Assembly: GCA_027314795.1 (NCBI GenBank)
Contig: DAHVAE010000036.1
Location: 1 to 7,297 of the forward strand
Origin: Candidatus Saccharimonadota bacterium
GTDB taxonomy: Bacteria; Patescibacteriota; Saccharimonadia; Saccharimonadales; UBA4665
DNA length: 7,297 nucleotides
Reading direction: 5' to 3'
The first letter of the stretch is position 1. Each line of letters opens with the position of its first letter. Below the pieces are notes generated by a model, which ran no database searches, was not told where the DNA came from, and saw only the letters and a program-made list of their open reading frames with translations. The translations under genes were made by a program, and so were the position numbers. Below are positions 1,527 through 4,616 of this stretch, in pieces.

Positions 1527-2897
1527 ATGGCCGAGACAGCCGTCCAAGAACAATTTAGAGACAGCCTATACCTAGTAGAAGATCAGCCTATGGCTGAGCT
1601 TATTGATGATCAGCTAGCTCGCAAAGAGGCAGCTAGATTTATTAGAAACATTGGCAGCACAGCTATTCAGGGTTGGGAAACTAAGCTAGATTTTAAACCT
1701 ATTGAGAACCTAGAACAGGCAATCAAACAGGCGGATACTGACCCTGTAGCCAGGCAAATGGTCAAAGCTAACGTTAGAACCGAAGGCATTGAGCAAACAC
1801 TTAAAGCCGGACATATAATGCATGTTGATCTATTTTCTGACGAATCATCAGTAATCTATCAGCACAACCAGACACTTAAATCAATTAACGCGAACAGCCT
1901 TAGCCTTGCTAGTGGTCATCATAAAATGAGAGAACGATCAGAAGCCGAAACTACAAACGCTTTTATGCTGCAAAGACTCTTCAGGCTCGGCCAATTAGAG
2001 GGCAAAAGTTTCGTCGTATTTTCTTTGGCTCCAGATAATATGTCTACTAAAGAAATGGACGATGTCGGTTTCTTTACGGATACTATGAGCCTAACAATTC
2101 AAGTCACTACCATCAAAGATGGCCAGCTTCAGTTAGAGTCGGCCTTTGTCGCTGGGATCAAGGAACATAATGGTGCTCGGCATGATATACCGGCAATTAA
2201 GTTACTAGCTAGAAAGATGGGTCTTAATTTTGACGATCTGACAGCTACTGAAATGTTAGCTAGTCCGGCCCTTATAGAAAATGAACATATGCCAGATGGG
2301 GCTATCAACATCGTTGAAATGCTCGATGAATGTATTGATGAGGTTACAGGGTCTACTGACACTTTCTTTGGTCAAGCCACCAGCAAACAGGACTACAGAC
2401 ATTACCAACAATACTGCGAGCTAAGGGAAAAGCGGTTTGAACCAGCAATTGAAAATGCGACATACGAGCTAATATCACAGGCTGGCACTATCAGTAATCC
2501 TATAGACGCTATTAAAAAACTCCATGAGATTACAGAAAAACATATGGTTTTATACGCAGCAATTGAAGACAAGTCTATCGATGCATGGGTCTTTGGTCCA
2601 AAAGCCGCGCCGCATATTGAGATGGCTCGTTGGCACATAGAAAACGGCAACATTGAACAAGCACAAGAAGAGATTGCCGTTAGCCAGAAACTTGCGGACG
2701 CTCGTTCCTGTCCCTCTGGTTTGTTATTTAAAGGTAGCTTGACTAATGAAGAAAGTAACAGCCCATCATCTGACGATTGTGAGTTTATATCTATAGAGTG
2801 CCCGATATGTCATAAGAAAAACGTCAAAACAACGATATCAAGAAGAGGGCAAAGGTCTTTAATAAAAGGTTCCTGTGGTTGCTCTAAGGTAGCTTAA
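1527..2897 (+). CDS. Unrecognised 456-residue protein with C-terminal zinc ribbon, under cobalamin riboswitch
   Basis: I do not recognise the main body. It has no signal peptide or membrane segment, so it is probably cytoplasmic. Residues about 1-100 are acidic and helical. The middle (about 95-265) looks like a mixed alpha/beta domain with strands such as 'KSFVVFSLAP' and 'MSLTIQVTTI'. Residues about 285-395 are strongly helical. A Ser/Asn/Asp linker (about 405-420) leads to a short zinc ribbon with Cys425, Cys428 (CPIC) and Cys450, Cys452 (CGC). I find no corrinoid-binding DxHxxG motif, no TonB- or ABC-transporter signature and no cobalamin-biosynthesis domain. NrdJ-type B12-dependent ribonucleotide reductases also end in a Cys-rich ribbon, but the catalytic barrel is absent. 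The ATG at 1527 is chosen because the Shine-Dalgarno AAAGGGA and the riboswitch platform sit directly before it. Its regulation implies a B12-linked role that cannot be named. Confidence 0.85.
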   Translation: MAETAVQEQFRDSLYLVEDQPMAELIDDQLARKEAARFIRNIGSTAIQGWETKLDFKPIENLEQAIKQADTDPVARQMVKANVRTEGIEQTLKAGHIMHVDLFSDESSVIYQHNQTLKSINANSLSLASGHHKMRERSEAETTNAFMLQRLFRLGQLEGKSFVVFSLAPDNMSTKEMDDVGFFTDTMSLTIQVTTIKDGQLQLESAFVAGIKEHNGARHDIPAIKLLARKMGLNFDDLTATEMLASPALIENEHMPDGAINIVEMLDECIDEVTGSTDTFFGQATSKQDYRHYQQYCELREKRFEPAIENATYELISQAGTISNPIDAIKKLHEITEKHMVLYAAIEDKSIDAWVFGPKAAPHIEMARWHIENGNIEQAQEEIAVSQKLADARSCPSGLLFKGSLTNEESNSPSSDDCEFISIECPICHKKNVKTTISRRGQRSLIKGSCGCSKVA

Positions 2898-3109: not shown

Positions 3110-3692
3110 AAATAAAATCGGTATATATTCAGGCAGCTTTGATCCAGTGCACTTAGGGCATATAACATTTGCCCTTCAAGCTATTGAAGAAGCCGGGCTA
3201 GATCAAGTCTTTTTCTTACCTGAAAGAGTACCACGAAATAAGGTCGGTTATGAACATTTTGGTCATCGGGTAGCAATGATTAAACGGTCGATAAAACCTC
3301 ATCCAAAACTAGGCTTAATTGAGCTTGATGATAAAACCTTTAGCGTTAGAAAAACCCTGCCAGCTCTAGAAAGATTACTTACAGATTCGGATTTAGTATT
3401 CTTATTCGGCTCAGATAAAGTTGAAGGCATAGCTAGGTGGCCTGATGGTCAGAAGTTTTTAAATCGTGCTGAAATAGTAATTGGTCTAAGACAAGGCTCA
3501 TCACTAAAGAAGGTGATAGCCGAGACCCAGACTTGGCCTAAACCGCCGCTTAAAATTATCGAAAGCTATTGGCCAGCTCTTGTTTCAACCGAAATTAGAA
3601 GGTCTCTTCAAAAGGGTGAAATAGCTCAAGGCTTAGCCAAAAGCGTCGCTACATATATAAGACAAAACTGGCTGTACGCCTCGATTAATTAA
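3096..3692 (+). CDS. nadD: Nicotinate-nucleotide adenylyltransferase-like nucleotidyltransferase
   Basis: This is a Rossmann-fold nucleotidyltransferase of the HxGH superfamily, about 198 residues, which is normal for NadD. 'IGIYSGSFDPVHLGH' (8-22) is the ATP-binding loop with HLGH at 19-22. 'FFLPERVPRNK' replaces the usual FxPxxxPPHK. 'VFLFGSDKVEGIARW' matches the family's GxDxxxxxxxW segment, and 'VSTEIRRSL' (STEIR at 164-168) is the C-terminal ATP-contact motif, followed by a typical 'YIRQNWLY' tail. NadD transfers AMP to nicotinate mononucleotide in NAD synthesis. The SYTxDTL motif is altered to 'FSVRKTL', so substrate preference (NaMN, NMN or another) is uncertain. I choose TTG 3096 because AAGGAG (3084-3089) lies 6 nt before it and the protein then begins just before the first beta strand, as in the family. 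The in-frame ATG at 3045 would add 17 unmatched residues inside the upstream gene. Confidence 0.8.
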   Translation: MKKVRNKIGIYSGSFDPVHLGHITFALQAIEEAGLDQVFFLPERVPRNKVGYEHFGHRVAMIKRSIKPHPKLGLIELDDKTFSVRKTLPALERLLTDSDLVFLFGSDKVEGIARWPDGQKFLNRAEIVIGLRQGSSLKKVIAETQTWPKPPLKIIESYWPALVSTEIRRSLQKGEIAQGLAKSVATYIRQNWLYASIN

Positions 3693-3701
3693 TAGATTTT
3701 A

Positions 3702-3731
3702 TTGACATAAGCACTATTAAAACCGTACAAT
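3702..3731 (+). promoter_or_regulatory. Near-consensus sigma70 promoter
   Basis: TTGACA (3702-3707), an 18-bp spacer and TACAAT (3726-3731) form the best -35/-10 pair in the window. It begins 10 nt after the nadD-like stop and points to the right, into a gap whose next gene is on the opposite strand. It therefore cannot serve an adjacent plus-strand protein gene and implies a standalone RNA starting at about 3738. Confidence 0.75.
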
Positions 3732-3737
3732 CAAAGC

Positions 3738-3900
3738 GTCTTAAGGGTAACCCCTGAAAACAAAAAAACAGTTAAATAAAGCCTTCAATTATATTAATTG
3801 GAGCGAAAGAGGGCAAAAGTGCCAATTAAAATAAAAGTTATAAAAAGCTATGCAGAAAGAGTTCCTGTCCATGTGGAATCGCCCTCTTGGCGCAATGTAA
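3738..3900 (+). ncRNA. Candidate standalone structured RNA with long pseudoknot
   Basis: Downstream of the strong promoter several complementary segments occur. Stem S1 is TTAATTGG (3794-3801) with CCAATTAA (3822-3829), 8 perfect pairs closing a 20-nt loop. Within that loop AAGAGGGC (3807-3814) pairs perfectly with GCCCTCTT (3881-3888), and GCG (3803-3805) extends this to CGC (3891-3893) across a small internal loop, giving an H-type pseudoknot. A hairpin GTTCC/GGAAT (3861-3865, 3875-3879) lies between the strands. CAATTA/TAATTG (3786-3791, 3795-3800) is an alternative hairpin excluding S1. The 5' part has a small GGG-TAA-CCC hairpin (3745-3753) and an A-rich tract. It does not show the core motifs I know for tmRNA, SRP RNA, RNase P RNA or 6S RNA. 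The ends are estimates, and no canonical U-tract terminator is visible. Confidence 0.5.
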
Positions 3901-3908
3901 TATCTTAG

Positions 3909-4616
3909 TTATTTCTTTGTCTGCTGGGTAGTACCAGCTGTTGTCGATTGATTAGCAGATTTACCGGTCTTTTGAGCAATGGCTGAATTTATTAGTGTTT
4001 GAAAAGCTGAAACACTATTAGCTACTGAAATCTTTTTACCGTCTAAGAAGAATGTTGGTGTAGCATCAATACCCAAGGAATTGCCGACATTTTCATCAGC
4101 AATAATCAGGTTATTGACTTGGTCAGATGAATAAAGCTGCTGGAACTTAGTCGTATTAAGTCCAAGACTCTTAGCGTATTGGACAAAAGTTGGCTCTGGA
4201 TTTGACTGGCCGATCCACGTTGGGTTGGACCCACCGGAGTTATAATAGATTTGGTTTTCTTGGTAAAGCAAATCGTGCATTTGCCAGAACATACCCATAA
4301 GTCCTGCCGCCTCAGCAGCTCTAGCGCCAGCAAAGGCGTTAGGGTGAAGCGAGGTTAGTGGGAAATTTCTAAACTGGAATGTTATTTGGGTGTTATATAA
4401 AGCCTCAACCTGCTTAACTGTTGAAAAATATTCACCACAGTATGGGCACTGATAATCTCCGTACTCAACTAAAGTCACACCAGCCTTACCTTCTCCTTCA
4501 ATATGATTGGTTGGGGTTAACTTGTTACTAGTATTATTGCCATTAGCGGTGAAGATAAAAACACCAACAAGTATTACGACTATTGCAACTACAACTATCC
4601 AAAAATTTCTAGTCAT
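3909..4616 (-). CDS. Membrane-anchored DsbA-like thiol-disulfide oxidoreductase
   Basis: Residues 5-23 form a hydrophobic N-terminal segment with no clear cleavage site, probably a membrane anchor exposing the rest outside the cytoplasm. 'VTLVEYGDYQCPYCGEYF' carries the CPYC active site (Cys57, Cys60) of the thioredoxin fold. A helical insertion with 'FRNFPLTSLHPNAFAGARAAEAA' follows, as in DsbA/BdbD-type Thioredoxin_4 proteins, and 'GIDATPTFFLDG' supplies the cis-proline (Pro187) next to the active site. At 235 residues it has normal length. Residues 215-235 form a Gln/Thr/Lys tail of low complexity. The role is formation or shuffling of disulfides in exported proteins; the neighbouring surface protein with two early cysteines is one possible client. 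No DsbB/VKOR partner is present in the window. The upstream GGGAG, 11 nt before the ATG, is a loosely spaced ribosome site. Confidence 0.9.
   Translation of the reverse strand: MTRNFWIVVVAIVVILVGVFIFTANGNNTSNKLTPTNHIEGEGKAGVTLVEYGDYQCPYCGEYFSTVKQVEALYNTQITFQFRNFPLTSLHPNAFAGARAAEAAGLMGMFWQMHDLLYQENQIYYNSGGSNPTWIGQSNPEPTFVQYAKSLGLNTTKFQQLYSSDQVNNLIIADENVGNSLGIDATPTFFLDGKKISVANSVSAFQTLINSAIAQKTGKSANQSTTAGTTQQTKK

Follow-up and report, generated by a model that had tools for sequence, protein, structure and literature searches.

The gap between nadD and a convergent dsbA-like gene raises the question of what is transcribed from it and for which product. It is located in the window, the whole stretch of 7,297 nucleotides that was analysed, which represents one whole contig (G000:C31). 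The flanking genes are nadD, with its stop at 3692, and a gene for a DsbA-like thioredoxin on the minus strand (3909..4616; Pfam Thioredoxin_4, E 2.4e-21, and DSBA, E 1.1e-14). A sequence-only reading had placed a dedicated, pseudoknotted non-coding RNA behind a strong promoter in this gap. According to the sequence comparisons reported here, positions 3702-3908 are very probably a microprotein gene with a structured leader.

The claim that the gap holds no plus-strand gene did not stand. A frame of 29 codons extends on the plus strand from a GTG start at 3819 to a TAG stop at 3908 and reads (M)PIKIKVIKSYAERVPVHVESPSWRNVIS*. It is preceded by a Shine-Dalgarno-like GAGGG (3809..3813, plus strand), 5 nt upstream of the GTG, and its TAG abuts the stop codon of the convergent dsbA. 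The assignment as a gene relies on a family profile match and on pN/pS; in its own genome, the frame matches the family profile with an E of 1.8e-11, its own peptide being among the 41 profile rows. In relatives, blastn yielded short matches to the 3′ part of the gap, several of which (G006, G030, G067, G068, G071) lie beside dsbA. A G006 match (E 2.6e-5) to the leader was attributed to A-richness and discarded, being located at the start of an unrelated long frame. After nadD and dsbA had been located in relatives, the 3′ flanks of dsbA were read at 56 loci. The common layout among the flanks listed consists of a promoter, about 100 nt, a Shine-Dalgarno site and a short frame. A frame search recovered this short frame, which follows the pattern MPIKIK...S....V.V.VRRPxWQQFLxY-stop, from 41 of the 56 flanks, including that of the window.

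The family comprises 140 distinct genes including that of the window, counted from hits of at least 18 bits with one copy per identical gene (203 of 265 loci had a hit). Exactly 30 codons are present in 121 of the 140, and the start codons are ATG (123 genes), GTG (16) and TTG (1). A Shine-Dalgarno core (GGAG, GAGG or AGGA) lies ahead of 104 genes, against 19.6 in shuffled sequences. Start codon, ribosome site and constant length are thus those of a protein-coding gene. Comparison of 30-codon genes differing at 2-30% of nucleotides gave a pooled pN/pS of 0.27 in frame, whereas the shifted frames gave 1.30 and 1.82; pN was smaller than pS in 310/310 close pairs, which are not independent of each other. 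Purifying selection is seen in one frame only, as in a protein-coding sequence.

The encoded peptides, about 3.5 kDa in size, are basic, with a median net charge of +3, and 136 of the 140 are devoid of cysteine. Trp24 is invariant in 57 aligned sequences. Of the first 41 sequences, at least 90% have a C-terminal Tyr; it is less consistent in the wider set, where it is retained in most sequences outside family f34. AlphaFold2, applied to 29 peptides, returned a poor model (pLDDT 61, pTM 0.17). Tiny peptides often model poorly, and no particular fold or partner is favoured by the model.

Library searches gave no name to the family. NCBIfam, Pfam and PHROGs yielded no hits with four peptides each, and PADLOC none with three. 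A search of 57 members against Pfam matched six families, each by one member only (best E 0.068). The PDB profile search returned five hits (best E 0.85), three of which are hibernation-factor chains over the same 17 positions; as homology, these matches were rejected as chance-level. The likeness to the N-terminal part of the ribosome hibernation promoting factor (6qbz_A, E 0.88) consists of a 17-residue stretch at microprotein positions 3-19, with a chance-level score and no other common feature, and the microprotein is not a member of that family. Conserved bacterial microproteins with a promoter of their own are a known general kind, and gene finders easily miss proteins of this size. The present family resembles them in having one short frame under purifying selection, a strong promoter and a Shine-Dalgarno site, and in being absent from family libraries; the difference is that it matched no named family of Pfam, NCBIfam, PHROGs or PADLOC. 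To the libraries searched, the family and its leader are new, although a larger protein catalogue may contain an unnamed entry; the kind of small-protein gene is already known. Among the papers listed by literature searches, none treats such a saccharibacterial small protein or leader, as judged by title or displayed abstract.

The promoter TTGACA-18-TACAAT (3702..3731, plus strand) was correctly recognised as near-consensus and as the strongest in the window: with 11 of 12 matches, it scores highest among the 12 promoter-like sites. By itself, the scan is not significant, since 19.4 such sites are expected in shuffles. The site is convincing because the same arrangement recurs in relatives. 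A TTGAC...-10 promoter is situated 60-160 nt upstream of the start in 118 of 138 family genes, against 3.1 on average and at most 6 in shuffles. In the spacer that separates the -35 and -10 elements, CATAAGC or its complement occurs in many relatives. The pattern TTGACA-(0-5)-CATAAGC was found at 33 places in 60 genomes, against three for a reversed control pattern. The DNA was read at 30 CATAAGC places; eight precede the microprotein gene and 22 lie elsewhere, some before other genes. An operator specific to the microprotein gene was rejected on these counts, and the spacer is taken as a strong-promoter feature of the order. A regulator common to several genes may possibly act through it. At three loci (L279, L283, L290), promoter-like sites with the CATAAGC spacer lie ahead of short regions that share an ACAAA...CTTGCAAGA motif, followed in L279 and L283 by a terminator-like hairpin. 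A script found no frame of at least 28 codons with a ribosome site there, and the short regions are possibly small RNAs of the order.

The predicted 5′ leader of the mRNA occupies 3738..3818 on the plus strand, its start site being deduced from the -10 box. Folding of the window leader places a first hairpin, AGGG-TAAC-CCCT, at 3744..3755, an A-rich element GAAAACAAAAAAACA, predicted to be unpaired, at 3756..3770 (many relatives: GAGACAAAAA), and a second hairpin with a CAATTATATTAATTG stem at 3781..3804, all on the plus strand. The proposed structured RNA behind the strong promoter thus reappears as the leader of a gene family, and the proposed inner hairpin falls in leader hairpin 2, a place at which a hairpin is kept in the family. 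From 118 of the 140 genes, leaders 60-150 nt long with a promoter score of 9 or more were taken; their mean folding z was -1.73. Swap and shuffled-half tests were confined to the 66 of these that match the motif expression, and kinship was ignored in them. For hairpin 1, own halves gave -8.66 and swapped halves -4.93; for hairpin 2, the values were -11.86 and -8.13; none of 2000 swaps was as stable in either case. With one half shuffled, the mean z was -1.30 for hairpin 1 and -1.32 for hairpin 2. The ACAAAAA stretch sits between the two hairpins, and ACAAAA is unpaired in 78 of the 89 leaders holding it. In alignment A2, the invariance of the motif is by construction, as its 64 rows were chosen by the motif (L255 and L247 dropped). 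The window's own leader is short and folds moderately (z -1.33), and its hairpins 1 and 2 are beaten by fractions of 0.21 and 0.20 of the swaps.

Leaders of the f34 type contain a 9-bp stem near a conserved UAAAGGUCGAA. A promoter was recognised for 26 f34-type leaders, of which alignment A5 includes 20; L265, L259, L236, L258, L169 and L243 were excluded as too different or too long to align, and eight more f34-type leaders are without a promoter found. The stem pairs in 90.9% of cells in these 20 leaders, although the rows L247, L260 and L160 form only two, three and six of the nine pairs as aligned. Double-changed cells numbered 16 against 5.1 in shuffles, with kinship not fully controlled. 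The covariation score was 0.421, a value reached in 0/500 shuffles, and slid controls gave at most 0.188. Two of the five measures were weak: five double-changed pairs (15/500 shuffles as high) and 14 further pair types (249/500). With kinship not fully controlled, the hairpins are maintained by compensating changes, as in a structured cis-acting leader. The predicted leader class would comprise two forms, one built as hairpin-GAGACAAAAA-hairpin and one in which a covarying CUCGCGC/GCGUGAG stem accompanies UAAAGGUCGAA. Leaders through which ribosomal proteins regulate themselves likewise combine variable paired stems with a conserved unpaired motif before a small basic protein; ribosomal proteins bind their own mRNA leaders. 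They differ in that no Rfam leader family matches the microprotein leader, for which autoregulation is a candidate mode of control.

That the locus makes a dedicated non-coding RNA, structured by an H-type pseudoknot and acting as a regulator, 6S-like RNA or ribozyme, is very improbable. The complementary letters on which it was founded do exist: TTAATTGG (3794-3801) with CCAATTAA (3822-3829), AAGAGGGC (3807-3814) with GCCCTCTT (3881-3888), and GCG (3803-3805) with CGC (3891-3893). Their pairing is unusually stable in the window, and a structured leader is present. However, the 3′ strands coincide with codons 2-4 and about 21-25 in the microprotein frame and stand under protein selection, and neither stem is kept in relatives. 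Each gene's own strands were compared with other relatives' partners, stem A being the leader against codons 1-6 and stem B the Shine-Dalgarno and start region against the last 12 codons (130 genes, kinship ignored). Own pairs of stem B had a mean of -13.4 and permuted pairs -13.8, with 1919 of 2000 permutations as low or lower; for stem A, the means were -6.27 and -6.11 (327/2000). Against shuffled strands, the stems had z values of +0.25 and +0.08. The window is an outlier in this comparison: its stem B, at -22.1, ranks in the best 2-3% of its row, and its stem A is the best of its row. As far as the compared sequences indicate, the pseudoknot pairing is private to the window sequence and, with two genomes of the genus, inseparable from chance. 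The search for homologues and covariation in relatives, suggested along with the pseudoknot, thus had a divided outcome: 140 genes and conserved leader hairpins were obtained, while the pseudoknot stems were not kept. Positions 3738-3908 have an ordinary folding energy (z -1.12), 28 of 200 shuffles reaching the same stability. The sequence-only reading was right that the gap resembles no common RNA family. Rfam gave no covariance-model match at gathering score in 3690-3920, which speaks against a 6S-like or ribozyme RNA as well; at E up to 10, four weak hits appeared (three microRNA families and DUF2800, best E 3.1), far below gathering scores. With 6S RNA, ribozymes and other Rfam families, the locus shares only the strong promoter and the position between genes. 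A tmRNA was rejected, as the search for tRNA-like ends plus a tag frame had no hit in the gap; the tmRNA of the genome is encoded on another contig (56.1 bits). The transcript is accordingly read as the mRNA, with its leader, of a conserved protein of about 30 amino acids.

The remaining alternatives accept a transcript or a frame and assign it another role. Convergent antisense control of dsbA, in which the transcript enters the 3′ end of the dsbA mRNA and pairing or polymerase collision tunes DsbA, would make the peptide perhaps an extra. It agrees with the abutting stop codons in the window, with the lack of a listed plus-strand terminator-like site between 3908 and 4616, and with the neighbourhood in the family. 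A tail-to-tail dsbA adjoins 118 of 127 informative genes at a median gap of 58 nt (13 with too little flank were set aside), and 77 of 86 genes whose first detection did not involve a dsbA or nadD query have it in convergent position (12 set aside likewise). Selection nevertheless acts on amino acids, some relatives have a terminator-like hairpin between both genes (read by eye), and nine of the 127 informative genes lack a dsbA alongside, so that the small gene is regarded as a unit of its own. Antisense control is therefore unlikely as the main role. The same neighbourhood bears on the idea of an attenuation or stalling leader peptide controlling a downstream gene. The invariant Trp24 and, in the first 41 sequences, the terminal Tyr may be likened to features of stalling peptides. 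But with a convergent dsbA next in 118/127 cases, a downstream gene on this strand is usually lacking, and a leader peptide is disfavoured to the point of being hardly credible. Scarcely better is the chance that the frame is the small toxin of a type I toxin-antitoxin pair. Small size and a structured leader would suit such a toxin, yet the peptide is basic and not hydrophobic, mostly one match occurs per genome, at the same place, and PADLOC returned nothing.

Decay of the window's copy, within a real family, such that it no longer makes a working protein, has a small but appreciable probability. The copy is atypical in its GTG start and in the replacement of the usual C-terminal F-L/I-x-Y by a degenerate NVIS; the copy of the genus mate G001 ends at 27 aa, the window's leader is short, and a remnant occurs in another genome (G031). 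On the other hand, the comparison with G001 gave a pN/pS of 0.25 with changes dominated by third positions (7/5/15 differences at codon positions 1/2/3), and the promoter has kept its 11 of 12 matches. A functional microprotein gene remains the preferred reading of the locus.

Convincing matches to the family came from the order of the window. In the class, 204 of 392 genomes, that of the window among them, matched the first profile at E≤0.05; every one belongs to the order except one marginal case (G107, E 0.023). Across the phylum, 19 of 286 genomes matched at E≤0.01, 18 of which belong to the order; the other match consists of 14 residues with an internal stop and was counted as chance. No convincing match outside the order was thus obtained in the 392 genomes of the class or the 286 of the phylum. 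With a wider profile at E≤0.01, the family was detected in 124 of the 194 genomes searched in the order, in 118 of these at 1e-6 or better, and in 77 of 90 genera. Genomes of at least 95% completeness had been requested for this sample, to which the window's own genome (87%) was added. A DNA pattern for the C-terminal part, run on one genome per species from 84,980 species, matched 34 contigs; 23 carry the title Saccharibacteria, Saccharimonas or a similar name, and 11 are titled only 'bacterium'. Plasmid records gave no tblastn match, and phage records no blastn match to the gap.

In 70 of the 194 genomes of the order, the gene was not found at E≤0.01, and among 20 misses listed, at least nine belong to two genera of family f34. 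A natural loss is represented by G031 (locus L086), in which the promoter, hairpin 1, the first half of the leader and GAGACAAAAA are kept and only the last residues of the frame remain. The misses together with this remnant indicate that the gene is not essential everywhere. In an f34 genus with several misses, a diverged copy was observed at about 590-690 of L296 (G242), where the frame reads MRVKKLKRSKKLQTKVAPAEWQEFIEI. A promoter-like site there leaves so little distance to the ATG that a leaderless mRNA is possible.

Other features of the window were recorded alongside. A cobalamin riboswitch (AdoCbl) is indicated at 1374-1509 on the plus strand, where the score of 43 bits (E 1.7e-5) stays under the gathering score of 50. 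The frame behind it (1527-2897, plus strand) encodes 456 aa and has no Pfam, NCBIfam, PHROGs or PDB match. Cobalamin-clan hits also precede homologues of the 456-aa protein, with 46.1 bits in L302 and 25.9 in L304, both under the cut-off, and 33.2 in L305, over it; a weak hit in L303 has no such homologue in the stretch. The 456-aa protein is conserved and likely B12-controlled. Upstream, at 847-1317 on the plus strand, a protein of 156 aa has only the LexA DNA-binding domain (Pfam 3.1e-14) and aligns with positions 5-79 of 203 of the LexA equivalog model, with 51 bits against a cut-off of 111. The predicted product is a LexA-like repressor without the usual peptidase part.

The following course of expression is proposed for the microprotein gene. 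Transcription would start near 3737 from the promoter at 3702-3731 and would be strong. The A-rich stretch would give ribosomes access and so permit efficient translation, and the leader hairpins may protect or regulate the mRNA; the microprotein is predicted to be strongly expressed. The product likely acts by binding a larger partner, on which the basic peptide, for which no confident fold was modelled, would dock. A factor associated with the ribosome or with RNA, and possibly autoregulated, would agree with the positive charge, the constant length, the general absence of cysteine and the structured leader; in the manner of ribosomal proteins, the microprotein may bind the leader of its own mRNA. 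As the partner, the ribosome or some other RNA complex is the likeliest candidate, at less than even chance. A somewhat more tentative proposal is that the order-wide protein of about 30 aa serves as a core accessory of the saccharibacterial ribosome or of another RNA machine, with a strong promoter of its own and a new peptide-sensing leader class of two architectures.

Saccharibacteria are described as bacteria with reduced genomes, the cultivated ones living on host bacteria. For them, PMC10633639 describes a natural-transformation method. In this order, the microprotein falls below the 40-aa query minimum of a large protein search, yet it is widespread among the sampled genera. The peptide is short enough to be synthesised, tagged or deleted, so its partner can be sought directly, and the structured leader offers a second handle, which is testable for autoregulation.
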